Source: Ochromonas danica (lineage: Eukaryota > Sar > Chrysophyceae > Chromulinales > Chromulinaceae). From it: a stretch of 64,000 bases of DNA. The stretch lies in assembly GCA_015146655.1 (NCBI GenBank), contig VKHL01000009.1, positions 62,001 to 126,000 of the forward strand, written 5' to 3'. The position numbers and the translations under genes were made by a program. The notes under the pieces are model-generated. The model was not told where the DNA came from. It saw nothing but the letters and a program-made list of their open reading frames with translations, and did no database searches. Positions 9,077 to 32,603 of this stretch are shown here, piece after piece. Each line of letters opens with the position of its first letter. The stretch's first letter is position 1.

Positions 9077-12000
9077 CTAGGCGACACTATGAAGCGGATT
9101 GTCTGATGAAGATTCGCCACAGATCTTAACGACAGGATCATCTCGACCTGTCATTGTGGCACGCATCTCAATCAATACCTTTTCTCCCAGTTCATCCCCT
9201 TTGCTATCTTCTCGTGGTTTCTCATCCACATGTTTCTTCTTGAAAACAAGTCGTCCAATCGCAGTATACCGACTCCAGTTGAAAAACAAGAAGATACAAA
9301 GCAGGCAAAATCCCCAAAACGCCAACACAAAAAACAATCCCACCAAACCTCCACCTTGATCACCGGCAGTATCAAATAGATAGCACGAGTAGAACAAAGG
9401 TAACAAGATCACAATGGGTCGACATGCCTTGGCAATACCTGGCCCGATCATATCCACCTGCTCACCCAGCAGGATAATCTTCTGTCTAAGTTGTGGTATA
9501 GACAATAGCCGCACACTACGACCCTCCCCACCAGCTGTTTCCGTCTGATCATCTGTGGATGTGCGGTTTGCATAACGTTCCATGATATGCAACCAACCGA
9601 TTTGTGAAAGATAGGTATTCGCTGCAATACTGAAGCCAATCAAAACAGCCAGAAATGGTGCGACAGCGCCAAAGGTTAGTAAACACCCTAGCATCATCGT
9701 TAAGCGAATCACAAAATCTCCAGAAGAGAAGCAAAGGCGGCCAGAGGAAGGAGAGGAGGAGCTCCTTGATGAATTATGAGACGGAGGAGCCGACTTATCC
9801 CCAACGGATGCAGACGAAGCAACACGTAGTGAAGAAAAAGACGAAGACAGCGATGAAAATAATGACGACGACTGCGATGAATCATCTTTCCACCTCCACA
9901 TAGAAGGCAATAGCGTCTCCAACCAGATTGCTCGCTTGTCTCCATTCTTTCTCCTCCAGTCAGTATATAAGGCAATACCAAGGACAACGAAAGGGTAGAC
10001 AATTCCAATAATTACATATTTGTAAGCGAAAACATAAGCATAATCGACCAAAATAGCCGAGCTACACTGGAAACCGTAGTTAAAAGGAGGAGAGAATTCT
10101 GTTGACAGACTTGCCTCTTCATAGGTGGAGCAGCCCAGGTTAGCATATATCTCACACTGTGCAAAGGTATAAGAAGCCGTTATAGCAGGGGGAGATGCAA
10201 AGACATAGTAGAAACAATCCGAGCTGGCAATCATTGTTGCCAAGCAAGGAGCCACAATAGTGTTGAAGAGCATCAAACTGCTCATGAAACTCATATTAAC
10301 CTTGTGCAGATCTCCGTCCAAAGGTAACTGTTGTATTGGTTGTAACCAATGCACAACACTCAATTGAACAATCATGCTCCAACCAACTTTAAACAGCGAC
10401 AAGGCCAATGACAGCATAACAGCGCTCCATCGCTGCAGTTCCCTATAGACGTATACATAAAAGCCATTCACGACTAAAACTACAAGAATATTGACTACTA
10501 AAATAACGATCTTCATCAATAATACATTTTTGAATTTGATCACCTCCTCTTTACTAAATTTGGAACTGATTGAGGAAATAGAAAGAAACATGCTCGAATG
10601 CTCCCGCACTGTCACGCTTTCCACTGATATTTGATGTCCACTGACAACATGCAATGGATTAACAGAAGAACTGCTTGCAGACAACTTCTCTTGCAATGAT
10701 TTCTCTTGCAATGATTTCTCCTGCAATTTCCATCTTCTGAAATACCTATACAATAGAATACCTTCAATTCCTAACAAAATGATGAAATAACAAGCCAATA
10801 CAATTGCAGCTACTATGCCAGTAAGGTAGGCGGCGGACAAAGTCCATGCATATTCATTATCATAAGATCCGCTGAATATTGTGAGGCAGACATAGATCGG
10901 CCCACCTACGCATACCATGCAAATTCCAAGCCACAATGCATAAAACCGAATGTCATGCAGTAATCTCCCTGCATCATAAATCAGTCGTAAGCTCCTTTCT
11001 TCCTCTTCTTTAAATAAATCGCCACTATTCGCATTAAATTGGTTCTGACTGTCTTCTGACCAAATCGAATGCTTCCACTTCAATATATCACAATTGTAAA
11101 GATCACTGCCATCTGGCAAAGATTCGTGCCAAAGTGATAACACTTTATTCCATCTTGCCAACAAATCAGCACCAAAGAAATTACTCTTGATAAAACGATA
11201 ACAAGTAAAGTGATTGTCTCTGTCACTGGTACTTGCTTGTGGTGCAGGTATTGAAGGGACTTTCTCGCAATCAGTCTTTGTTGCATCATTAGCATTATCA
11301 GAAGGGGAAACAATCTTCTCATCAGTCTCAGTTGTTTCGTTAGTTCGATTCCTCCTCTTTCTTCTTCTTTCATAAGCTATCACAAGAAATAACACACCAA
11401 TCATCCCAAATACCAAGCCTGCCCAGACAATTAATGAACTATTGAGATTATCGGATCCGCAGTCATACTGTTGATTGTAAGAATCACTTCGAGGGAGATC
11501 ATTCTCACCATCTGTTGTTGGACATGCAAACATATTTCCTCGTAGCATATCCAGGTTTCCTCCTGTCATGTCATAGTAGAAACCTGGGATACGACCTGAG
11601 AATCGATTGATACTCAAATAAATCGAAGCATTGGCTGGAAAACCGCATCCCGTCTGATAGATGGTTTGATTACGGGAAGTTTTTAATTCTCCCTTGAGCT
11701 TGTTGTAGCTCACATCGAGTGCTTTCCACCTCATTCCTCCTCTTAACGGGGCGGGAAGGGTACCTGTCAACAAGTTATGCGACAATGAGATGTCATTCAA
11801 CTGACTTCCCAAGTCACTTTCCTCTTTCACAGGGATGCTTCCTCTCAGACCATTTCCAGCAAGATGCAAAGTCTTTAATCTGGGCATACGGAAGAGGCAA
11901 TCAGGAATACTCCCATGGATGGCACTAGACTTCAAAGAGTACGAATGAATCCGAGGGAACACATTAGACAAGATTGGACTGCGACAAGTCTTGGCAGTCG

Positions 12001-13897
12001 ACAGACCATCCAACGCCAACACTTCCAACGACGTAATATTACAAAAGCTATCCGGAATCGTTCCCGTAAAACAATTCTGAATGGCTGCAAAGGATTTCAA
12101 CACAACTCCGGTGCCAATTTGAAATTGGCTTGGAATGGACCCCGTGAGCAGATTATTGCTAATATCCACATTCTGCAACAGAGCATGCACTCCTTGAGAG
12201 AATAAGTTTTCAATTGAACCCACTAGAAAGTTAGACTGTGCAAAGAGGAAGAGTAGAGATGCCATGCTGGAAATGTCGGGTAGTGGTCCGCTGAGCAGAT
12301 TGAAGGAGATGTCAAGCACTTGAGAGGCTGGAGCATATGATAGAACAGAGAGATTGCCACTGAAGTAATTAAGGCTAACATTGACATACTGAAAATGAAC
12401 AGCTGATTTTGCTGTAAAAGAGAGTGATCCAGTGAATAGACAATCCTGCAACTGTAGCATGTTGAGGTTACTGAAATTGGACCATTCCAGATTGGCGGGA
12501 CCGGTGAAGGCATTCGTGCCTAAACCCAAACTAATCATTCGTGTGAGGCTACTGAGCGCATAGGGGACAGTTCCATACAAGAGGTTATGGTCTAGAATGA
12601 GGTAAGCCAGATTGCTTATTCGGCCGATATCGTTTGGCAGAGTCCCTGTGAGAAGATTGGTACCCAATAACAGACCAACCAACGCCGTCGAATCATAAAA
12701 ACTCTCCGGAATACTCCCCTCTATTAAGTTATAGCTAATATCAAGGTAATTGAACCAAGGTAGCTTCCCCAAGCCTGCAGGAATGGGGCCAGTGTAAAGT
12801 GACTTGGCCATGGAGAGAATTTGTAGAGAAGTGCAGTTGACTAAGGTCACAGGCAAAGTACCCGTAAAGAAAGCATAGCTGGCATCTAAAACACTCAGGT
12901 AAGACAATTTGCCTAAGCTGCTAGGCAAAGTTCCGTTCATCAAGCTATAGCCAATATAGATGTTGGCCAACTGACTGAGATTGCCCACAGCAGTGTCCAA
13001 AGTACCCGACAAGGTATTATATTCCACACTTAACTGTCTCAAATGAGTAAGAGAATAGATATCCATTGGAATGGTCCCAGACAATACATTGAACTCCACA
13101 ATAATATCTTGGATAATAGCACTTCGCCAATCCTCTGGCAGTGGACCGCTCAAAGAGTTGTCCGAGAGAGAGAAAGTGGTCAAGTTAATAATATTATACA
13201 CAAGTTGAGGCGGAATGGTTCCAGTGAAGGAGTTGCTTGCCAAGGAAAGATAGCTCAAAGATGTGAGCTGGGACAGTTCTGCGGGAATTGTACCCTCGAG
13301 AAACATGGTTTCGAAAGACAAAACCGTCAATTGAGTCATTAGAGAGATGTTTCTTGAAATATTTCCATTCAAAGTTAGACTTTGAAGATACCAAAAGGTC
13401 AGATTGGAAAGACCGCTGTAGAATGCCTCGGGAATAGTGCCAGACAGTGACAAATAGCTCAATTGCAACACTTGCAGGTTGCGCAACTCACTCAGAGCAC
13501 TTGGAATAGTTCCCGTTAGGGACAAAGTATCAAGAATAAGAGTGTTTAAAGTGGTCAGATTGGCCAAACTGTGTGGAATGGTTCCAAAGAGACCCTCGCT
13601 GCTCTCGATATCCAATATCTTCAATGCTGAGAAGTTGCCAAGAGATTCAGGCAACGTTCCATTGAGAGTGAAGTATTGTAGCGAAATTTCAACGATTTCT
13701 TGTTGACACTTCAGCACAGAACAATCCAAGCTACAAGTAACACCTGCCCAATCTTCCTCGCAGGGATTGGGATGAGCCTGAGAGAAATTCCACGGATTGC
13801 CATCATCAATTGTCCACTGATCTCCATTTGTAGCAAGATAAAGATCATAGAGAATGTCAATATCACTATCAATAGGGGGATCCTCGTCTATTTCCAT
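9077..13897 (-). CDS. Giant leucine-rich-repeat protein with multi-span membrane C-terminus
   Basis: Predicted protein of 1,606 residues in one exon. Residues about 10-60 hold an LRR N-terminal cap: WAGVTC and flanking cysteines, as in plant-type LRR ectodomains. About 25 repeats follow to residue 800, of the plant-like L-x-G-T-I-P type, ending in a cysteine cap. A first membrane helix (about 825-847, followed by RRRKRR) is followed by a linker of about 140 residues, and then by some eight more hydrophobic segments between about 985 and 1545. The tail is charged. An outward LRR sensor fused to a multi-pass module is the natural reading; ligand and output are unknown. The ATG at 13,897 follows an in-frame upstream stop and gives no signal peptide, so a missed upstream exon or a damaged 5' end is possible. 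Its first 190 bp lie inside tandem-duplication unit A. Confidence 0.8.
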   Translation of the reverse strand: MEIDEDPPIDSDIDILYDLYLATNGDQWTIDDGNPWNFSQAHPNPCEEDWAGVTCSLDCSVLKCQQEIVEISLQYFTLNGTLPESLGNFSALKILDIESSEGLFGTIPHSLANLTTLNTLILDTLSLTGTIPSALSELRNLQVLQLSYLSLSGTIPEAFYSGLSNLTFWYLQSLTLNGNISRNISLMTQLTVLSFETMFLEGTIPAELSQLTSLSYLSLASNSFTGTIPPQLVYNIINLTTFSLSDNSLSGPLPEDWRSAIIQDIIVEFNVLSGTIPMDIYSLTHLRQLSVEYNTLSGTLDTAVGNLSQLANIYIGYSLMNGTLPSSLGKLSYLSVLDASYAFFTGTLPVTLVNCTSLQILSMAKSLYTGPIPAGLGKLPWFNYLDISYNLIEGSIPESFYDSTALVGLLLGTNLLTGTLPNDIGRISNLAYLILDHNLLYGTVPYALSSLTRMISLGLGTNAFTGPANLEWSNFSNLNMLQLQDCLFTGSLSFTAKSAVHFQYVNVSLNYFSGNLSVLSYAPASQVLDISFNLLSGPLPDISSMASLLFLFAQSNFLVGSIENLFSQGVHALLQNVDISNNLLTGSIPSQFQIGTGVVLKSFAAIQNCFTGTIPDSFCNITSLEVLALDGLSTAKTCRSPILSNVFPRIHSYSLKSSAIHGSIPDCLFRMPRLKTLHLAGNGLRGSIPVKEESDLGSQLNDISLSHNLLTGTLPAPLRGGMRWKALDVSYNKLKGELKTSRNQTIYQTGCGFPANASIYLSINRFSGRIPGFYYDMTGGNLDMLRGNMFACPTTDGENDLPRSDSYNQQYDCGSDNLNSSLIVWAGLVFGMIGVLFLVIAYERRRKRRNRTNETTETDEKIVSPSDNANDATKTDCEKVPSIPAPQASTSDRDNHFTCYRFIKSNFFGADLLARWNKVLSLWHESLPDGSDLYNCDILKWKHSIWSEDSQNQFNANSGDLFKEEEERSLRLIYDAGRLLHDIRFYALWLGICMVCVGGPIYVCLTIFSGSYDNEYAWTLSAAYLTGIVAAIVLACYFIILLGIEGILLYRYFRRWKLQEKSLQEKSLQEKLSASSSSVNPLHVVSGHQISVESVTVREHSSMFLSISSISSKFSKEEVIKFKNVLLMKIVILVVNILVVLVVNGFYVYVYRELQRWSAVMLSLALSLFKVGWSMIVQLSVVHWLQPIQQLPLDGDLHKVNMSFMSSLMLFNTIVAPCLATMIASSDCFYYVFASPPAITASYTFAQCEIYANLGCSTYEEASLSTEFSPPFNYGFQCSSAILVDYAYVFAYKYVIIGIVYPFVVLGIALYTDWRRKNGDKRAIWLETLLPSMWRWKDDSSQSSSLFSSLSSSFSSLRVASSASVGDKSAPPSHNSSRSSSSPSSGRLCFSSGDFVIRLTMMLGCLLTFGAVAPFLAVLIGFSIAANTYLSQIGWLHIMERYANRTSTDDQTETAGGEGRSVRLLSIPQLRQKIILLGEQVDMIGPGIAKACRPIVILLPLFYSCYLFDTAGDQGGGLVGLFFVLAFWGFCLLCIFLFFNWSRYTAIGRLVFKKKHVDEKPREDSKGDELGEKVLIEMRATMTGRDDPVVKICGESSSDNPLHSVA

Positions 13898-14059
13898 TTT
13901 CAACGTCTGCCTGCCACTTCTGATTGTTTGCGTCTCGCAATCGGATGGGCAGAAGGGTAAAAGTCAAAATAAACAAAGCTGGGCAAAATGGCGCGCCTTG
14001 ATTGCCCTCCCATGAACAAAAGGGTCGAGTCTCTGTAATAAATTTTACATCCGATTCAG

Positions 14060-17000
14060 CACAACATCATCAAACTGGCTGCTATACGATCTCTCGTTGA
14101 CTTTGTCCAGCAAAACCTTGCTAACAAGGCTCTTCCTTCACCAGAGGATCTGGAAGAATATCTCTCTGGTATTCAGACTTCCACGACTTCTCCAAGCGAG
14201 AGGATATCACAATTATCATCATCATCCTCGTCCTCCCCTACAGAAGCTCTAACCCCTAAACAGAACATAATCACTTCTTCTCATAACTTGAAAAGTACTT
14301 TGGAAGATAAGGATCGTGCTGTTTTGGTCAACTCTTTCACGAAGTTTTTCGTTCTGTTCAACAAACTGATCGACCTCTTATGTAAATCATCTTTCCATGG
14401 TTGGCTAGCTTTCGCAAGTTTTCTCCATTTCTTGTTATACCATCAACTATCTTCTAGCGCTCTCGGTGGCTTTGGGTGGTTCCGAAGGCAGCTGACTTTC
14501 CTTCGACATAGTAATGATAATTTGGCTTTGGAGGAGATTCTCGAGAGAATGCTAGCAAGACAATTTCATTTCGAATTTTATTACTGTCTGAGAGTGCTTT
14601 TGGAATCTTGTGGTAAGTAGGCTATGACTATCTCTGCACCCGTGCTTTCTGATCTGTTCCGATGACGCAACAGACTGGCCGGAAATATCATTTCCTTCTA
14701 TCAGAAGACGCATTACTTTGCTAAGTGAATCGTGTAGCTTCGGAACGCTTGGTCCAATGGACTTTCTAGACGGGTTATTTCGTCTTAAAATCACCAACGT
14801 GGCTCCCATAGAGCGCATGAGCAAGTTGCAAACACTGTTGCAGCTGATTCCCTCCAACTGCCACAATCTCCACGCCGACATCCTACTTTATATGGGACCG
14901 TGCAAACTGTCTTCCAAGCCAAAGCAGGACCGTCTTCATCAGGTCTTTATGGCCAAGGGGCGATGGATATGTGGCGCCGTGAACTCTTTGGACTCACTTC
15001 TGCTTGAAAAGAAAGAGAAAATTATGAGATCGACTACTCACTTGAGCGACCCACTTGATGATCTCGAAAAGAAGGAAGACAAGAGTTTAGACAATCGTAA
15101 TCGATTGAGTCTACAAGCACCAGCACTTGTTGAACTCTCACCATCGCAGCCGCAACCAAGTCAACCACCTTTGGATCAGAGACGAGACCAGCCGTCTAAG
15201 CCACCCGCTAAGCAGGGACCAATAGCTCAGCAACAGTCTAGTCGTCCAGCTACTGAGCAGGGACCAACAGTTCAGCAGCAGCAGCAGCAGCCTCAAACCC
15301 AATCACTACTGAGTCGTTCATCTGCTGAGCAGAGACCAACAGCTCAGCAACAGTCTAGTCGTCCAGCTACTGAGCAGGGACCAACAGCTCAGCAACGGTC
15401 TAGTCGTCCAGCTATTGAGCAGAGACCAGCAGCTCGGCAGCAGCCTCAGACCAAATCACAACTGAGCCGTCCACCTGCTGAACAGAGACCAACAACTCAA
15501 CCTCAGACCCAATCACAACTGAGCCGTCCACCTGCTGAGCAGAGACCAGCAGCTCAGCAGCAGCGGCAGCAGCCTCAAACCCTATCACAACTGAGCCGTC
15601 CACCTGCTGAACAGAGACCAGCAGCTCAGCAACAGACTCTGTCACACACGCAGATCGGGGAGAGACGAGAGGCTTCAGCTTCATCTCCCTTCAGTTCTAA
15701 TCGAAATATGTCGCCAGGCGGCCACAAACAATCAAACGATGATGCAATAAACCTGTCCGGAAAACGCCTTCGCTCTGAGGAAGAAGAGCAGCACAATTCA
15801 TCAAACGAAGGCAAACAACACAAGAGGAAACGTACTAGTCAAGAAATATTGGAGCCTGTACCAGCACAGCATGTCATAAGAAGGGAAGAAACCATACCCG
15901 ATGGAGAGGATGTATCTGTGCTTTGGATGGATGGGACGGTGGTTGACCGCAAAGAAGTGGAAGATAAGCTAGCGCAGGCTTTAGACAAGCTTAAGACTTG
16001 CTACAGCGATGAACAGCGTTTTCACAATTGTCAAGCAGACGCAACAGCACTTCTGGAGGCTTTCTTTGATAGATCCAAGACCGACAATGACATCCTCGAA
16101 CTCTGCAAGAAGATGAACAGCAAACATGTCCCTCCTAGTTGCTTGGAGATGAGAGGTAAATTCCGAGCGTTTTTCCCTTCGCGACAGTTTGTGGTGACGC
16201 CGCGATTTCGAACCATTGTGATAACCGAATCTGTCACCGATCCTCTTCCTCAACGACCAATGGAAGAAAGTACGACCGAGGAGGAAGAGGAAGATGTTAG
16301 TGATGATGAAAATCGGGGAAATATGGATGTCAGCAAAGGTGAAGAGTCTAATGACGTTATGAAAAATAAAGAGCCGTTCACTCCAGTATCATTACAGCAA
16401 GGTTTGAGCATCCCCGTTCGGAACGATTTCTCTATATCAACTTCACCGCGAGATAATCAAAGGCCTCTCTCCAGTCCAGTAGATAACAGCCGACCAAGCC
16501 AACATTCGACAACATCGTCAACATCGAGCGATCAAGTTCGACTACCGTCAACGGACAACACGGCTGCCTCATCAAACGTTGCAGGGAAGCTGCAAGGTGC
16601 TGAAGCTTCGGTTGTTTTTGGGTCATCTATTTCAAATGGCGCCCTTGGCATCAGTCTCGCACCAGCACCATTGTCTTGGACTACAGACCATTCCCATGGG
16701 ACAAAAGATTACCTTTCAAGACTTTCAAATGAGAGCGCACAGAAAGAGAGACAATCGCCTGCAATCTCAGTGGTTTCAAAGTCGAAGACTATTGACTCCT
16801 CTCTGGGATCCTCTTCCAGCCTCTCCACTTCTATGAAAGCAGACCAACGCTCTCTTCCAGATCAAGGATTAGAACCATCCTCTCTCTTGAAGACCCCTAT
16901 TGAGCGGCTTCCCTCTTCCTCTTCCTCTGCCGCTGGCGTTATCGATCTCACTGCAGAAACAAACCAGGCAGCTCAAACGGATAGGAAAGCACAGTCAATC

Positions 17001-18076
17001 CCTCCTTCCCCGCAAGTCTCTTCAAGAACAACTTCTCAACCTCTGCCTTCTTTGGAAGGGGATTCTCGTTCTATACCCACTTCATCGAATACCGTCTCAA
17101 TGCGGGAATTGCTTCCTACACCAGAGCAATATCAAGAATTGAGCTATTTTTTCTGCTGCTATATTGCTGCGATTCCTTTGCTTTATTTCAGATATAATGA
17201 AGACTTGCGAGCCGCTGTGGGGAGAGCTGTTGCGGCGGTACTCAGAGTAAATAGCGTCGGTGAGATTGAACGACAAGCATCTGCACATAATATCATGAGC
17301 GAGACTCTGGAGCGTTTTATCTCATTGGCTCGCAGATATATGTCAAGAGCGTGGAAGATGCACTTAAAGGAACATCTTTTGTTGGCGCAAGCACATCAGA
17401 TATTAATGAGAGAACCACTATCTTCGTTTTTGCCAAGGTCTCTTTATCAACCGCAAAACCAATCCGCAGCAGGAAATATTATGAGTCCTGCAGAGGAGCA
17501 TCAAACTCAACCACAAGTACATCAGCAATCTCATTCCACCGGGTTGGTCCAGAATACTGCCATTGGACCTCGTCGAATTGTTGAACAGTTTAATGGTCAA
17601 GTTCCCGTACAGAACTCGAACCGGCCACAGCAGCTGCCATTCACACCTTCAATGTAGGTACATTCCTTTGCATTCTTTCTGGCTATTTGCATTTTGATTC
17701 TTAAGTGCGCTTGACTACGTCTTCTTGTAGAGCTAACAATCCTCCACGAGCAGCTCCGATATATTACCCTCCAGCATATCCCATACATCAAACACCAGCA
17801 TGGAGCAGCACAGGGTCATCTGGAAATGACTTTTTCTATAACCGCGCTTCTATGCAAACATTTTCGGCACATTCTCAGAATAATGGAGCTCCCCTCTCAT
17901 CAATTCAAAATGCGCCACCACACAACACCTCCTTTTTGAACATACAGCCTCCTGGCCCTCGAGCGTACCCTTTGAATCCGATGCTAAATCAACCTCAAAC
18001 AAATGCTCCAAGCTCGAGATCACAAGAAACACAACCAACTAACCCACAAGAAGCACAATGGCCGATGTGGCGATAG
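14060..18076 (+). CDS. Glutamine/proline-rich disordered protein, copy A
   Basis: I do not recognise this family. Three exons, up to 14612, 14674-17653 and 17731-18076, join in phase to about 1,292 residues. The N-terminal exon is helical and aromatic-rich. A Q/P/S minisatellite follows, then a basic KHKRKRTS stretch suited to nuclear import, a folded-looking acidic segment with VSVLWMDGTVVD and FRAFFPSRQFVVTPRFR, a serine-rich region, VIDLTAE (a SUMO-interaction-like motif), and a helical block around residues 1,000-1,100. The end is P/N/Q-rich. A nuclear adaptor or transcription-related role is only a guess. No ATG opens the first exon in frame: the frame runs open from a double stop at 14,036-14,041. 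I place the start at the CAG acceptor candidate (14,057-14,059); an upstream ATG at about 13,944 with a GTAAAA donor would join in frame but is absent from copy B. Confidence 0.72.
15196..15640 (+). repeat. Coding minisatellite (Q/P/S repeats), copy A
   Basis: Imperfect tandem repeats encode units such as SRPPAEQRPAAQQQ and SRPATEQGPTAQQ, with CAG-rich glutamine runs between them. The array stays in frame. It is longer than the matching tract in copy B (about 20,725-21,005), which explains most of the 60-residue length difference between the two proteins. Repeat slippage or unequal exchange is the likely cause. Confidence 0.85.
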
Positions 18077-18222
18077 CTCCCGCTCACTTGAGACTTGTGA
18101 CTTTTATTTATGGAGATTTATTATTGACTTCATTTCATCAATATATGAAGAACAATGATAGGGGATCAACAATTTGGATGTACCTATAATTGTACTGAAC
18201 TATCATTAGATAGTCAGTTAAC

Positions 18223-19262
18223 TTACACTTCATGGTATATACAGAATACACAGACTTTACAGCCTTCCAGGAGCTCCAACAATCGATCAGCGGTCCATCC
18301 ACCTTTCTTGCGTGATATTCCCTCTTTACGTTCAATTTTTCTCACCACATGAGCAAGAATTCGCTCGTTCATTCGTGCTGAGGTAGCAGATGGTGGCATG
18401 CTGCGATTCTTGATCTCCTGGTAGGTTGCGGCTGACTTTGGTCTTCTGCTGTCTACTCCACTTCGATTTGTTCGCATGGAGGGAATTGTACTGACCGCCA
18501 TTTTCCTTCTTGACTAACTTGATCTGCTTCATGAAGTGATCTCGAGTGACATCTAATTTACCTCGTAATTCCAGATATTTCTCATCCATGAGTTTTAGCT
18601 GGTCTTCCAATACTTTACTTCCTTCATTCACTTCATGCAATGCCCTAATCACAAGACAAGTCGTCAGGGTATGTGGCGGTTTGACTGTTTTGATTGACTC
18701 TCACCGTTGCTGTGTGGCGATAATTCGTTGTTGACGATCGATCTTGGCCTGCAAAGCTCCATCTTCTTTCTCGTTTTTACGGCTCTCTTCAATAATCTTC
18801 AAACGCTTGGCTGACTCGATCTTGAGTGCTTTCATGAGCTTCTCCACGTGATCGACGAGGACGGTGATCTTCTTGTTCTGAGACTGGATGAAGTCCTCAA
18901 GGACGGAGTGCTGACTCTTCTCCTTCTGTAGCTTCCCTGCCAGTCGTTTGTACTTGAGATACCAGTCATCTTTCTTGTCAACTTGCTGTAAGGTTTGGAG
19001 GATTTCTGCTTCGAAGTGTTTGCTCTTCTCGATGATTGCTCGCTCTTGTTTAGTCAGGCGGCCAGAAGGATAAGAGGAAGAGGAGGAGGCTGGAGGATGT
19101 TGCTCCAATGGAACAGTTTGTTTAGAGAGAAGAGAAATGGAGATTTCGATCACTTGGCGATAGTCTTCCTCAGTGGCCAAGCTGTCGGACATGTTCACCT
19201 GGTGAGCAAGCTGGCAGAGACATTGATGAAGAGTGGATGAGAGAGGGGCTGAGGTTCTATCA
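18223..19262 (-). pseudogene. Broken copy of the coiled-coil gene (unit A)
   Basis: This is the unit A copy of the gene intact at 23,616-25,229. Three lesions are visible. The 5' end is cut at the duplication junction (19,263), so the first roughly 55 codons and the promoter are lost. An internal 454-bp stretch, equivalent to 23,842-24,295, is replaced by 11 bp at 18,485-18,495, a net loss of 443 bp that shifts the frame. Near the 3' end 12 bp present in the intact copy are absent, which removes the normal stop codon. The intron and remaining exon sequence match closely, so decay is recent. It might still be transcribed but cannot make the full protein. Confidence 0.9.
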
Positions 19263-19460
19263 TCAGGATAGAACAGTCCAAGCTACAAGTAACACCTGCC
19301 CAATCTTCCTCGAAGGGATTGGGATGAGCCTGAGAGAAATTCCACGGATTGCCATCATCAATTGTCCACTGATCTCCATTTGTAGCAAGATAAAGATCAT
19401 AGAGAATGTCAATATCACTATCAATAGGGGGATCCTCGTCAATACTACTTTCAACGTCTG
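19263..19460 (-). pseudogene. 5' fragment of the LRR gene (unit B)
   Basis: This is a duplicated stub of the LRR gene's N-terminal coding region; the intact gene carries the matching sequence at 13,711-13,897. It encodes the start of the LRR cap (DIDILYDLYLATNGDQW) and stops at the duplication junction, where it runs into coiled-coil gene sequence. Upstream on the minus strand, in this copy only, a hydrophobic run (AILTFTLLF) is in frame with the cap and looks like the core of a signal peptide, although I find no ATG for it. The stub is non-functional as a receptor. Confidence 0.85.
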
Positions 19461-19584
19461 CCTGCCACTTCGAGAATAGAAGGGTAAAAGTCAAAATAGC
19501 GGGACAAGCAAAGCCGGGCAAAATGGCGCGCCTTGATTGAACAAAAGGGTCGAGTCTCTGTAATAAATTTTGCGTCCTATTCAG

Positions 19585-20916
19585 CACAACATCATCAAAC
19601 TGGCTGCTATACGATCTCTCGTTGGCTTTGTCCAGCAAAACCTTGCTAACAAGGCTCTTCCTTCACCAGAGGATCTGGAAGAATATCTCTCTGGTATTCA
19701 GACTTCCACGACTTCTCCAAGCGAGAGGATATCACAATTATCATCATCATCCTCGTCCTCCCCTACAGAAGCTCTAACCCCTAAACAGAACATAATCACT
19801 TCTTCTCATAACTTGAAAAGTACTTTGGAAGATAAGGATCGTGCTGTTTTGGTCAACTCTTTCACGAAGTTTTTCGTTCTGTTCAACAAACTGATCGACC
19901 TCTTATGTAAATCATCTTTCCATGGTTGGCTAGCTTTCGCAAGTTTTCTCCATTTCTTGTTATACCATCAACTATCTTCTAGCGCTCTCGGTGGCTTTGG
20001 GTGGTTCCGAAGGCAGCTGACTTTCCTTCGACATAGTAATGATAATTTGGCTTTGGAGGAGATTCTCGAGAGAATGCTAGCAAGACAATTTCATTTCGAA
20101 TTTTATTACTGTCTGAGAGTGCTTTTGGAATCTTGTGGTAAGTAGGCTATGACTATCTCTGCACCCGTGCTTTCTGATCTGTTCCGATGACGCAACAGAC
20201 TGGCCGGAAATATCATTTCCTTCTATCAGAAGACGCATTACTTTGCTAAGTGAATCGTGTAGCTTCGGAACGCTTGGTCCAATGGACTTTCTAGACGGGT
20301 TATTTCGTCTTAAAATCACCAACGTGGCTCCCATAGAGCGCATGAGCAAGTTGCAAACACTGTTGCAGCTGATTCCCTCCAACTGCCACAATCTCCACGC
20401 CGACATCCTACTTTATATGGGACCGTGCAAACTGTCTTCCAAGCCAAAGCAGGACCGTCTTCATCAGGTCTTTATGGCCAAGGGGCGATGGATATGTGGC
20501 GCCGTGAACTCTTTGGACTCACTTCTGCTTGAAAAGAAAGAGAAAATTATGAGATCGACTACTCACTTGAGCGACCCACTTGATGATCTCGAAAAGAAGG
20601 AAGACAAGAGTTTAGACAATCGTAATCGATTGAGTCTACAAGCACCAGCACTTGTTGAACTCTCACCATCGCAGCCACAACCAAGTCAACCACCTTTAGA
20701 TCAGAGACGAGACCAGCCGTCTAAGCCACCTGCTGAGCAAAGACTAACAGCTCAGCAGCAGCAGCAGCCTCAAACCCAATCACAACTGAGTCGTTCACCT
20801 GCTGAGCAGAGACCAACAACTCAGAAACAGTCTAGTCGTCCAGCTACAGAGCAGGGACCAACAGCTCAGCAACAGTTTAGCCGTCCAGCTAATGAGCAGA
20901 GACCAGCAGCCCGGCG

Positions 20917-20947
<31 letters not shown>

Positions 20948-23421
20948 CAGACCCAATCACAACCTAGCCGTCCACCTGCTGAGCAGAGACCAGCAGCTCA
21001 GCAACAGACTCTGTCACACACGCAGATCGGGGAGAGACGAGAGGCTTCAGCTTCATCTCCCTTCAGTTCTAATCGAAATATGTCGCCAGGCGGCCACAAA
21101 CAATCAAACGATGATGCAATAAACCTGTCCGGAAAACGCCTTCGCTCTGAGGAAGAAGAGCAGCACAATTCATCAAACGAAGGCAAACAACACAAGAGGA
21201 AACGTACTAGTCAAGAAATATTGGAGCCTGTACCAGCACAGCATGTCATAAGAAGGGAAGAAACCATACCCGATGGAGAGGATGTATCTGTGCTTTGGAT
21301 GGATGGGACGGTGGTTGACCGCAAAGAAGTGGAAGATAAGCTAGCGCAGGCTTTAGACAAGCTTAAGACTTGCTACAGCGATGAACAGCGTTTTCACAAT
21401 TGTCAAGCAGACGCAACAGCACTTCTGGAGGCTTTCTTTGATAGATCCAAGACCGACAATGACATCCTCGAACTCTGCAAGAAGATGAACAGCAAACATG
21501 TCCCTCCTAGTTGCTTGGAGATGAGAGGTAAATTCCGAGCGTTTTTCCCTTCGCGACAGTTTGTGGTGACGCCGCGATTTCGAACCATTGTGATAACCGA
21601 ATCTGTCACCGATCCTCTTCCTCAACGACCAATGGAAGAAAGTACGACCGAGGAGGAAGAGGAAGATGTTAGTGATGATGAAAATCGGGGAAATATGGAT
21701 GTCAGCAAAGGTGAAGAGTCTAATGACGTTATGAAAAATAAAGAGCCGTTCACTCCAGTATCATTACAGCAAGGTTTGAGCATCCCCGTTCGGAACGATT
21801 TCTCTATATCAACTTCACCGCGAGATAATCAAAGGCCTCTCTCCAGTCCAGTAGATAACAGCCGACCAAGCCAACATTCGACAACATCGTCAACATCGAG
21901 CGATCAAGTTCGACTACCGTCAACGGACAACACGGCTGCCTCATCAAACGTTGCAGGGAAGCTGCAAGGTGCTGAAGCTTCGGTTGTTTTTGGGTCATCT
22001 ATTTCAAATGGCGCCCTTGGCATCAGTCTCGCACCAGCACCATTGTCTTGGACTACAGACCATTCCCATGGGACAAAAGATTACCTTTCAAGACTTTCAA
22101 ATGAGAGCGCACAGAAAGAGAGACAATCGCCTGCAATCTCAGTGGTTTCAAAGTCGAAGACTATTGACTCCTCTCTGGGATCCTCTTCCAGCCTCTCCAC
22201 TTCTATGAAAGCAGACCAACGCTCTCTTCCAGATCAAGGATTAGAACCATCCTCTCTCTTGAAGACCCCTATTGAGCGGCTTCCCTCTTCCTCTTCCTCT
22301 GCCGCTGGCGTTATCGATCTCACTGCAGAAACAAACCAGGCAGCTCAAACGGATAGGAAAGCACAGTCAATCCCTCCTTCCCCGCAAGTCTCTTCAAGAA
22401 CAACTTCTCAACCTCTTCCTTCTTTGGAAGGGGATTCTCGTTCTATACCCACTTCATCGAATACCGTCTCAATGCGGGAATTGCATCCTACACCAGAGCA
22501 ATATCAAGAATTGAGCTATTTTTTCTGCTGCTATATTGCTGCGATTCCTTTGCATTATTTTGGATATAGCGAAGAGGTACGAGCCGCTGTGGGGAGAGCT
22601 GTTGCGGCGGTACTCAGAGTAAATAGCTTCCATGAAGTTGAACGACAAGCATCTGTACATAATATCACGAGCGAGACACTTGAGCGTTTTATCAATATGG
22701 GTCGTGAATACATGATAAGTCTCTTTAGTATGCACTTAAACGAACATTTTTCGTTGGCACAGGCGCATCAGATATTAATGAGAGAACTACTATCTTTTTT
22801 GCCAAGGTCTCTTTATCAACCGCAAAACCAATCCGCAGCAGGAAATATTATTAGTCCACAAGTACATCAGCAATCTCATTCCACCGGGTTGGTCCAGAAT
22901 ACTGCCATTGGACCTCGTCGAATTGTTGAACAGTTTAATGGTCAAGTTCCCGTACAGAACTCGAACCGGCCACAGCAGCTGCCATTCACACCTTCAATGT
23001 AGGTACATTCCTTTGCATTCTTTCTGGCTATTTGCATTTTGATTCTTAAGTGCGCTTGACTACGTCTTCTTGTAGAGCTAACAATCCTCCACGAGCAGCT
23101 CCGATATATTACCCTCCAGCATATCCCATACATCAAACACCAGCATGGAGCAGCACAGGGTCATCTGGAAATGACTTTTTCTATAACCGCGCTTCTATGC
23201 AAACATTTTCGGCACATTCTCAGAATAATGGAGCTCCCCTCTCATCAATTCAAAATGCGCCACCACACAACACCTCCTTTTTGAACATACAGCCTCCTGG
23301 CCCTCGAGCGTACCCTTTGAATCCGATGCTAAATCAACCTCAAACAAATGCTCCAAGCTCGAGATCACAAGAAACACAACCAACTAACCCACAAGAAGCA
23401 CAATGGCCGATGTGGCGATAG
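19585..23421 (+). CDS. Glutamine/proline-rich disordered protein, copy B
   Basis: Paralog of the 14,060-18,076 gene with the same three-exon plan (19585-20137, 20199-22998, 23076-23421) and about 1,232 residues. Exon 1, intron 1 and most of exon 2 match copy A nearly perfectly. The Q/P repeat tract is shorter and carries a longer pure CAG run (about 20,922-20,943). The helical block encoded by about 22,485-22,856 is strongly diverged from copy A: for example RAWKMHLKEHLLL in A is ISLFSMHLNEHFSL-like in B. The VIDLTAE motif and the basic region are kept. As in copy A the start codon is unresolved: no in-frame ATG is found between the upstream stops and the body of exon 1, and the possible upstream ATG seen for copy A is missing here. 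Both copies look open throughout, so both may be expressed. Confidence 0.7.
20725..21005 (+). repeat. Coding minisatellite (Q/P/S repeats), copy B
   Basis: In-frame imperfect repeats encode PPAEQR/PATEQGPTAQQQ units and glutamine runs, including eight or more consecutive CAG codons near 20,922-20,943. The array is shorter than the matching one in copy A. Confidence 0.85.
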
Positions 23422-23615
23422 CTCCCGCTCACTTGAGACTTGTGACTTTTATTTATGGAGATTTATTATTGACTTCATTTCATCAATATATGAAGAACAA
23501 TGATAGGGGATCAACAATTTGGATGTACCTATAATTGTACTGAACTATCATTAGATAGTCAGTTAACTTACACTTCATGGTATATACAGAATACACAGAC
23601 TTTACAAACACTGTT

Positions 23616-25229
23616 CTAGCCTTCCAGGAGCTCCAACAATCGATCAGCGGTCCATCCACCTTTCTTGCGTGATATTCCCTCTTTACGTTCAATTTTTCTC
23701 ACCACATGAGCAAGAATTCGCTCGTTCATTCGTGCTGAGGTAGCAGATGGTGGCATGCTGCGATTCTTGATCTCCTGGTAGGTTGCGGCTGACTTTGGTC
23801 TTCTGCTGTCTACTCCACTTCGATTTGTTCGCATGGAGGGAGAGCCTGGAGTCATTGCCCGACCCGTAGCCATAGGACTTGCAGTGCGCGTATCAGGTTG
23901 AGAAGAACAGGCAGATTTCGCGCTGAGGCCGAATGCAGATGGTACAGCCGACAATGGTGGAGGAAGGCCAGCCTTCAATCCCCCCAAGAAGTTATGCTGC
24001 ATCTGCATCTGTTCCGCCGTCATTAACGTGCGAATAACAGGACTGGGAGTACGTCCACCGCTATTGCCTTGAAGTGCAATTCCTTGAGAAGCCAGGTCAA
24101 CCGATTTCGCACGATTCTGTCGGAATGTCTTCAATGCATCCAGATCAGACAATGCTGCCTGGAAGGTGTTGATGGGTGGCGGCTGAGACGACATTTCCAT
24201 TATAGCAGTGATAGCATGCTGCTGACGAGAGGCGTCTGGTCGCGCTTTGTCCAACAGAGCACCGCCAGTCATTGCGGCATACTTTGCGCGTAGATCGCCA
24301 TTTTCCTTCTTGACTAACTTGATCTGCTTCATGAAGTGATCTCGAGTGACATCTAATTTACCTCGTAATTCCAGATATTTCTCATCCATGAGTTTTAGCT
24401 GGTCTTCCAATACTTTACTTCCTTCATTCACTTCATGCAATGCCCTAATCACAAGACAAGTCGTCAGGGTATGTGGCGGTTTGACTGTTTTGATTGACTC
24501 TCACCGTTGCTGTGTGGCGATAATTCGTTGTTGACGATCGATCTTGGCCTGCAAAGCTCCATCTTCTTTCTCGTTTTTACGGCTCTCTTCAATAATCTTC
24601 AAACGCTTGGCTGACTCGATCTTGAGTGCTTTCATGAGCTTCTCCACGTGATCGACGAGGACGGTGATCTTCTTGTTCTGAGACTGGATGAAGTCCTCAA
24701 GGACGGAGTGCTGACTCTTCTCCTTCTGTAGCTTCCCTGCCAGTCGTTTGTACTTGAGATACCAGTCATCTTTCTTGTCAACTTGCTGTAAGGTTTGGAG
24801 GATTTCTGCTTCGAAGTGTTTGCTCTTCTCGATGATTGCTCGCTCTTGTTTAGTCAGGCGGCCAGAAGGATAAGAAGAAGAAGAGGAGGCTGGAGGATGT
24901 TGCTCCAATGGAACAGTTTGTTTGGAGAGAAGAGAAATGGAGGTTTCGATCACTTGGCGATAGTCTTCCTCAGTGGCCAAGCTGTCGGACATGTTCACCT
25001 GGCTAGCGAGCTGACAGAGCCATTGATGAAGAGTAGATGAGAGAGGGGCTGAGGTTCTATCATCAGCCTTAGTGCGGGTGATGACAGTGGCAGCAGTGTT
25101 ATTGTTATTGTTAGTGTTAGCAGAGGTAGCGTTAGTCGTGGTAGCAGAGGTTGTGATCGCCCAGCCCTGCGCCTTTCTGTCACTCTCTTGAGACAAAACA
25201 TCTTCTACTGAACTTTCCTGAAGATCCAT
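23616..25229 (-). CDS. Coiled-coil protein, intact copy
   Basis: Predicted 517-residue protein from two exons, 25229-24505 and 24444-23616, separated by a 60-nt intron. The N-terminal 55 residues are low-complexity (T, N, A). Residues about 110-300 form a long coiled coil rich in K, E, Q and L heptads (KITVLVDHVEKLMKALKIE, QAKIDRQQRIIATQQR, EDQLKLMDEKYLELRGKLD). A proline/serine/threonine linker and a basic conserved-looking end (ERILAHVVRKIERKEG, TADRLLELLEG) follow. I do not recognise the family. The layout fits centrosomal or axonemal proteins, and the divergent neighbour is an FOP-like centriolar gene, so a ciliary role is a reasonable guess. The ATG at 25,229 is followed by an open frame. 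Unit A contains a broken duplicate. Confidence 0.75.
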
Positions 25230-31219: not shown

Positions 31220-31814
31220 TGTGTGTGTGTGTGTGCTGTCATCCATGAGGTATATCAAAATACATGATAATGTGATATGTTGTGTATTCAGATATAAGGT
31301 TGACAATATCCTCAACCTCGAATTGGATGGACCTGAGAGAACAACTCAAGAATTCGCAGGACCTGGAATGGTTTCTAAAGTAGATCCTGTGCTTGACATG
31401 GACTTCAATGGTGGCGGAGATGGAGATGATGTTGCCTTTGATGGTTCAGTTGCTCAACCCATTAGTTCGCCTTACTTGTCCTATGGCGGTCTGGCAGGAG
31501 AAGGAGGAGATGATCGAAGCATTCGCAATACCTCTGAGAAGTCTGTCTCTCGACCCAAGACAGGCAAGAAGCGTTCATCAGAAGCCAAGGCCGCGGCTCC
31601 TAGTAATGGGGGAGGGGCAGACTACTACGGCGGAGGGTCTGGTGGAGGCAGCAATGGTAATGGTAATGGTAGTGCCATGGCACGTCCTAAAAGCGCTTCA
31701 CGTCGTCGTGAGCCTGAAGGCAACGGTAGCAGTCGTGGCGATGACTATGGGGGAGGAGGATACCAGCAGGAGGACATGGTGTATCCAACTTCTCGTGGCT
31801 TGGTGAGGAAGTAG
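28618..31814 (+). CDS. KIF3: Kinesin-2 motor subunit (KIF3/FLA-like)
   Basis: Plus-end microtubule motor of intraflagellar transport. Eight exons: 28618-28703, 28776-28977, 29086-29100, 29182-29628, 29717-29949, 30054-30408, 30501-31150, 31292-31814. They join in phase to 836 residues. The motor domain fills about 1-340: [25 protein letters not shown] (Walker A), SSRSHSIF (switch I), LVDLAGSE (switch II) and a neck [27 protein letters not shown], which is diagnostic of kinesin-2. A coiled-coil stalk runs to about 650, and a glycine-rich, basic tail closes the protein. Exon 3 is a 15-nt microexon coding only TGSGK. The intron before the last exon contains a long GT microsatellite. The last codons and 3' UTR are tandemly repeated downstream. 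Confidence 0.95.
31166..31235 (+). repeat. GT microsatellite in the last kinesin intron
   Basis: About 70 bp of almost pure (TG)n with one A interruption lie directly after the splice donor of intron 7 (GTAATG at 31,151). The tract is expected to be length-variable and could influence splicing of the final exon. Confidence 0.95.
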
Positions 31815-32603
31815 CCTGACATGACATGGTGATGATGACTGTGTGTTTCGTGCAACACGATCAAAGCGTTCAATCAATTACATGGTATGTAATTAAATAA
31901 AGCTTGCAGCAACCTTTTCATTCTTCTTTCCTCTTAATCTTTATGGTTTTATCTGCCAAGTCAAAGCCATTCGTATTGAAACTATACAAAGGAACATTCG
32001 AGATTAATCCCGACGCAAACGAAGTGAGTGATTTTCTTATGGTAATGGTAGTGCCATGGCACGTCCTAAAAGCGCTTCACGTCGTCGTGAGCCTGAAGGC
32101 AACGGTAGCAGTCGTGGCGATGACTATGGGGGAGGAGGATACCAGCAGGAGGACATGGTGTATCCAACTTCTCGTGGCTTGGTGAGGAAGTAGCCTGACA
32201 TGACATGGTGATGATGACTGTGTGTTTCGTGCAACACGATCAAAGCGTTCAATCAATTACATGGTATGTAATTAAATAAAGCTTGCAGCAACCTTTTCAT
32301 TCTTCTTTCCTCTTAATCTTTATGGTTTTATCTGCCAAGTCAAAGCCATTCGTATTGAAACTATACAAAGGAACATTCGAGATTAATCCCGACGCAAACG
32401 AAGTGAGTGATTTTCTTATGGTAATGGTAGTGCCATGGCACGTCCTAAAAGCGCTTCACGTCGTCGTGAGCCTGAAGGCAACGGTAGCAGTCGTGGCGAT
32501 GACTATGGGGGAGGAGGATACCAGCAGGAGGACATGGTGTATCCAACTTCTCGTGGCTTGGTGAGGAAGTAGCCTGACATGACATGGTGATGATGACTGT
32601 GTG
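31660..32603 (+). repeat. 379-bp tandem repeat spanning the kinesin 3' end
   Basis: About 2.5 direct copies at an exact 379-bp period: AGTGCCATGG recurs at 31,671, 32,050 and 32,429. Each unit holds the last roughly 50 kinesin codons with stop, the 3' UTR with an AATAAA-like signal, and about 120 bp of further sequence with a first-exon-like frame. The third copy stops shortly after the kinesin stop codon, near 32,603. Copies look identical by eye, so the array is very young or is an assembly artefact. The extra kinesin ends lack an upstream splice acceptor and cannot act as exons by themselves. Confidence 0.92.
31943..32023 (+). pseudogene. Orphan first exon, repeated at 32,322-32,402
   Basis: An 81-nt frame opens with ATG, codes 27 residues (MVLSAKSKPFVLKLYKGTFE then INPDANE) and ends at a strong donor, GTGAGTG, in phase 0. 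The sequence recalls the N-terminus of dynamin-like large GTPases (guanylate-binding/atlastin group), but it is too short to be sure. Both copies sit in the 379-bp array, and no second exon follows on the plus strand before the opposite-facing sedolisin gene. It is best read as the stranded first exon of a gene whose body was lost or moved. Confidence 0.45.

Follow-up and report, generated by a model that had tools for sequence, protein, structure and literature searches.

A diverged block in tandemly duplicated glutamine-rich genes of Ochromonas danica, probably a remnant left unconverted by gene conversion

In hypervariable recognition and allorecognition genes, amino-acid differences are locally concentrated. 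Local divergence is also described for duplicated genes of several other kinds. In a review, exon 5 of the human red and green opsins is presented as a divergence peak around selected sites (PMC3924837). For the Drosophila duplicates CG18281/CG17637, a simulation is reported in which a peak above 15% within 1,600 bp is very unlikely without selection (P<0.0001; PMC2588116). For the GOT1 paralogs of Tigriopus, the author weighs neutral against selective readings and describes the data as suggestive of selection for one pair (PMC3728101). According to the same review, conversion proceeds at a rate that varies with divergence, and its restriction brings concerted evolution to an end (PMC3924837); ineffective conversion around the edges is described for Drosophila duplicates (PMC2588116).

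Here we describe a tandem pair of glutamine-rich genes, named A and B, whose near-identity is broken by a diverged block. The pair lies in a 64-kb stretch of DNA (the window, contig C9, 62001-126000) from an assembly of 31.19 Mb in 337 contigs. As in hypervariable recognition genes, the amino-acid differences of the A/B block are locally concentrated; unlike those genes, the block yielded no known domain in searches, has a dN/dS of 0.59 (0.31-1.22), not significantly above 1, and comes from one genome. The locus resembles opsin exon 5 and CG18281/CG17637, as these are described (PMC3924837, PMC2588116), in its local coding peak with homogenised flanks. It differs from the opsins, for which functional sites are established, in that the block is known from sequence alone. 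The locus also recalls the account of Tigriopus GOT1, in which highly diverged islands in exons stand within paralogs that are otherwise more alike and population data show further conversion events (PMC3728101), whereas the present data come from a single genome with mosaics in several unrelated families.

The duplication is about 5.5 kb in size, and its two units lie in tandem. In the unit of copy A (13711-19266, + strand; self-BLAST and alignment), glutamine-rich gene A is accompanied by the 5' part of a - strand LRR gene and by a truncated remnant of the neighbouring coiled-coil gene, also on the - strand. The unit of copy B (19263-25066, + strand; self-BLAST, alignment and open frames) contains an LRR-gene remnant, glutamine-rich gene B and most of the coiled-coil gene, a name assigned by eye, whose open frame extends past the unit to 25271. 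The LRR part in copy B and the coiled-coil part in copy A are both remnants. At the duplication junction (19263-19266, no strand), self-BLAST finds 4 bp common to both parent ends, which suggests microhomology at the junction. Gene A (14042-18076, + strand) was delimited by open frames, by splice sites placed by eye and by alignment of exon 1 with a paralog on contig C15; its exon 1 runs from 14042 to about 14612, exon 2 from about 14674 to 17653 and exon 3 from about 17731 to 18076. Gene B (19567-23421, + strand) has the same exon layout, from open frames and splice sites by eye. Head-to-head with gene A lies the LRR gene (9077-13963, - strand), an open frame of 1,628 codons from stop to stop. 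The coiled-coil remnant of copy A (18486-19266, - strand; alignment) is without 443 bp of B at 18485, yet 580 bp of it (18496-19075) are identical to B; it is also without 12 bp at 18260, which overlap the stop codon in B. An in-frame ATG is absent from the first part of exon 1 in both glutamine-rich genes (14042-14110; 19567-19635). The CTG at 14075 in A lies opposite the initiating ATG of the predicted C15 protein, which makes a non-AUG start, or an upstream exon outside the gene model, possible.

The two units were compared by a global alignment from end to end, which holds 123 substitutions. The counts given here cover 91 of them. The remaining 32, of which 24 lie in 13889-14029 and 8 in 18485-18495, are badly aligned beside indels and were omitted. 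At the 5' end (13711-13888 and 14030-14100), 8 of 249 sites differ, and the intervening 13889-14029 aligns poorly, with its 24 substitutions and indels of 1, 16 and 10 bp. The next 1,051 sites (14101-15151) are identical. The glutamine-rich repeat (15152-15611 in copy A, + strand; self-BLAST and alignment) is a second diverged internal stretch, with 27/307 sites different and indels of 48 and 105 bp. It is followed by a near-identical tract on the + strand (15612-17181) in which 2 of 1,570 sites differ, at 17045 and 17113. The core of the diverged block, placed by alignment at 17182-17510 in copy A and 22554-22855 in copy B (both + strand), has 44 substitutions in the 299 sites to 17483, a 3-bp indel at 17424 and a 24-bp indel at 17487-17510. 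From 17484 to 18484, 0 of 977 aligned sites differ, intron and 3' UTR included, and one 12-bp indel interrupts the identical + strand tract 3' of the block (17511-18484) at 18260. Beyond the 443-bp gap of copy A at 18485, which is flanked by 8 substitutions, 18496-19075 differs at 0/580 sites and the 3' end (19076-19266) at 10/191.

Three levels of divergence are found: 2/4,178 aligned sites in the four pooled interior tracts, 18/440 at the ends and 44/299 in the block. Fisher tests give P of about 5e-17 for ends against interior and about 5e-7 for block against ends, with tract borders set after the data were seen and the badly aligned substitutions in 13889-14029 and 18485-18495 excluded. 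Between 15612 and 19075 (3,426 aligned sites, 18485-18495 omitted), 44 of the 46 substitutions fall in one 310-bp window, while at most 15 did so in 2,000 shuffles. The changes are also patchy inside the block, where 19 lie within 36 bp (0/10,000 shuffles); an unchanged run of 63 aligned sites occurs (P 0.0006), and the longest run in the core to 17416 is 48. A templated origin of the densest cluster was rejected: when 13-mers were compared over the whole window, A had three matches, at two places, and B had none. The duplicate pair shows near-identical tracts, non-coding sequence included, broken by diverged stretches, which is the pattern by which interlocus conversion is recognised.

Much of a preliminary description of this DNA agrees with the alignment. 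Its count by eye of about 45 substitutions corresponds to the 44 in 17182-17483 and the one at 17113, and its two indels are present. The near-perfect match of about 1.4 kb before the block holds, with one substitution (17045) between 15612 and 17112, as does the match of more than 0.5 kb after it, and the proposed contrast between unequally diverged parts of the copies is borne out. The block itself, first drawn at 17113-17508, has a diverged core that begins later, since 17114-17181 is identical. The copies are not "otherwise identical", in that the glutamine-rich repeat, both duplication ends and the flanks of the 443-bp gap differ too.

The block differs at synonymous as well as nonsynonymous sites. 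Its dS is 0.25 (0.13-0.42), with about 15 differences in 71 synonymous sites, and its dN is 0.15 (0.10-0.22), whereas the coding flank on the 5' side (15613-17170) has a dS of 0.003 and a dN of 0.001. In the bootstrap of the block dN/dS, 7% of replicates exceed 1, and dN is not significantly above dS in the block; the densest 14 codons have a dN/dS of 0.69/0.71. Selection on amino acids alone, acting on a young background, lifts dN only; since dS is raised too, either the block predates the identity seen in its flanks or its mutation rate is locally raised, and the divergence of the block looks older than that identity. The replacements shift the charge strongly: at the variable positions A has 5 basic residues and 1 acidic, and B has 0 basic, 2 acidic and 3 His. 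All four indels within the open frame (48, 105, 3 and 24 bp) are multiples of three. Pfam gave no domain for the block, and for exon 2 only a low-complexity Extensin_1 match below its cut-off (E 1.3e-5) and FZ_RECK at 0.046. The best E among PDB sequences was 0.85 with the block, while the two family alignments reached 1.1 and 6.7, none of them credible. The changes had been placed in two helical segments; counting helices longer than four residues, an AlphaFold model of the two-sequence block alignment weakly predicts four, with lengths above ten residues, at a pLDDT of 49.7.

A third paralog had been proposed as the source of the block, to be checked by a search of the genome for a copy with a matching block. 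Searches of the whole 31.2-Mb assembly with the DNA and protein sequences of the block retrieved no copy besides A and B. The paralog on C15 is a clear third member of the family, with N-terminal parts of about 35-38% identity to A/B, and it ends before the block region. A third copy as block donor was rejected for this assembly on these results. Searching the genome with exon 2 added two weak matches: one on C65, at E 0.008, covers residues 780-863 and has three stops, and the other, on C4, has an E of 0.85. Neither came back when the block alone was the query, with E values allowed to reach 10. In a protein collection, residues 810-1009 found no relative among proteins of about 555-1,766 aa; an earlier search with A, using words from the first 500 residues that hardly covered the block, returned none among lengths of about 359-1,143 aa. 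These protein searches with A, within the same length ranges, did not return even A's own protein, though the C15 protein is in the collection, and the C15 query matched only its own predicted protein there (source eukprot). The C15 paralog (L010:3745-5570, + strand) lies head-to-head with an LRR-bearing open frame (L010:1204-3594, - strand), like gene A. This arrangement may be chance, LRR matches being common here: LRR_8 alone has at least 138 matches in the genome, several per gene, with 150 of 436 candidates scored.

Other tandem or closely placed paralogs of the genome were profiled as controls at eight loci, comprising LRR genes (C35; C137 vs C292), S53 peptidases (C72, C1), ABC transporters (C63, C13, C55) and a P450 pair (C144). 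They gave 20 comparisons (7 + 8 + 5), which are not independent within C72, C35 and C137/C292, and the profiles cover the longer matches in the control stretches. In 11 of the 20 comparisons and at 5 of the 8 loci (C35, C72, C1, C13, C144), 100-bp windows of 10 or more differences occurred alongside an identical run of 500 bp or longer. All loci except C144, and except the 5 further C137/C292 comparisons, had been picked by equal domain scores, a selection that biases toward identical tracts and not by itself toward adjoining deep divergence. The mosaic loci comprise LRR genes, S53 peptidases, one of the three ABC pairs and the P450 pair, which are unrelated families (L021-L023, L026-L029, L032-L034, L038). 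The combination was lacking in C63 and C55, both of them nearly uniform (C55 has 2 substitutions), in a short piece of C35, and in C137/C292, both in its main piece and in the 5 further comparisons. In C13 the diverged windows lie only at the ends. As in A/B, identical tracts of at least 200 bp enclose a diverged stretch on both sides at C35, C72, C1 and C144. The P450 pair, which was not picked by score, shows 18 and 33 differences per 100 bp over some 200 bp, flanked by identical tracts of 218 and 660 bp. A local divergence peak in coding sequence amid homogenised flanks is present at the block and also at other loci in this genome.

Shuffle tests covered 13 of the 20 control comparisons. 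In 8 of them, the longest runs were reached in 0/500 shuffles for 7 and in 3/500 for C55. The 5 further C137/C292 comparisons have longest runs of only 91-248 bp, still with 0/300 shuffles, and a further C137 stretch gave no self-match above 900 bp. The dN/dS of the islands in the controls ranges from 0.21 to 0.77. It is 0.65, 0.68 and 0.77 in C72 (the last from C72 2-3, of 21 codons only), 0.57, 0.38 and 0.38 in C35, 0.26 in C1 and 0.21 in C144. The A/B block is like C72 and one C35 pair, and above C1 and C144.

We consider it probable that the block is a remnant of older divergence left unconverted by interlocus gene conversion between the tandem copies. The involvement of conversion in the A/B mosaic, common to both origins offered in the preliminary description, is well supported; one of these origins, import from a third paralog, is not supported by this assembly, in which the block was found only in A and B. 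A 5.5-kb tandem duplication carries two copies of the glutamine-rich gene, which would have diverged after it. Recent interlocus conversion would then have made most of the interior uniform, the intron, the 3' UTR and the dead gene remnant among it, while the repeat, the C-terminal block and both edges would have stayed unconverted. The block would have been spared since conversion declines where substitutions and indels already separate the copies. This is the simplest account, in that two copies and one known process suffice. We infer these conversion events, their direction and the divergence barrier as the cause of the sparing, and all ages are relative. The ends are more diverged than the interior, which points to a duplication older than its identical tracts suggest and would not be expected of a recent duplication alone, and the higher edge divergence would fit ineffective conversion at the edges. 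Because the intron, 3' UTR and pseudogenic DNA are homogenised too, constraint is not the cause of the identity. The earlier statement that neutral drift does not give such contrast is right for drift alone, but drift combined with divergence-limited conversion can produce it in principle. Several points weigh against a remnant left unconverted: controls chosen by equal domain scores favour identical tracts, several control comparisons lack the mosaic, the block is more diverged than the edges, several tracts need recent conversion, each ending at the block, a neutral remnant need not show so strong a charge change, and the Drosophila simulation makes such a peak very unlikely without selection (PMC2588116).

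One alternative, which we regard as unlikely, is that selection protects the block: the different jobs of the two copies would reside there, and products of levelling conversion would be removed, as in the human red and green opsins. A divergence peak of this kind is a described signature of selection, and the Drosophila simulation finds it unlikely otherwise (PMC3924837, PMC2588116). The in-frame lengths of all four indels, the swing in charge and a block dN/dS above the P450 and C1 islands point the same way, the last also counting against an unconverted remnant. Yet the ratio of 0.59 lies within the range of other islands, with few replicates above 1, and since islands recur in the genome, one more needs no special cause. 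A related idea has little chance of being right: strong local conversion might leave tandem paralogs either levelled or escaped at 10-35%, the islands being sites of separate functions and the charge-switched segment giving A and B different partners. Diversifying selection on the block, suggested earlier, is not shown: the upper limit of its dN/dS is 1.22, dS is raised as well (0.25 vs 0.003), and the ratio lies among those of islands in other pairs. A recognition or specificity role has no positive support, an LRR neighbour being weak evidence in a genome so rich in LRR_8 matches. The recurrence of islands and a block dN/dS within their range favour neutral escape from conversion over selective protection, though the data are not decisive.

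It is also quite improbable that the block was imported, either given to one copy by a diverged allele or a lost or unassembled paralog, or brought in by a duplication that joined haplotypes already differing there. The block is more diverged than the edges, both in total and at synonymous sites, unlike the prediction for a duplication of a single age, so it may predate the duplication and could have come from an unseen allele. Import leaves the diverged edges unexplained, and no third copy was found, as DNA or protein, in the 31.2-Mb assembly, and the protein collection gave no relative among the protein lengths that were searched. Very unlikely is an assembly effect, in which consensus or polishing levelled real low-level differences in the flanks and inflated the contrast. 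The few flank differences do sit near diverged anchors (17045, 17113, 19076-19143), and the windows over 11 comparisons mostly have 0 differences (237) or 3 and more (57 at 3-9, 41 at 10 or more), with few (18) at 1-2. Polishing, however, cannot create the diverged block itself; no N occurs in the 64-kb window or in the control stretches scanned for it; and the identical 5.6-kb tract of C13 is placed twice in one contig with distinct edges.

These observations suggest that, where gene conversion is active, paralogs of a genome can have a striking local contrast as a usual state, so that other duplicates of that genome should be consulted before a divergence peak is taken for selection. The assembly has 47 matches to the chlorophyll a/b-binding family, which indicate a photosynthetic alga, and mosaic pairs would make this alga usable as a test of when duplicates escape conversion. 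Four of the chlorophyll a/b-binding matches, at C224:8673-16382, score equally and follow one another at intervals of exactly 2,407 bp; they are apparently near-identical tandem units. Elsewhere in the window, self-BLAST finds a 379-bp unit in tandem at 31660-32603, in about 2.5 copies that are 100% identical.
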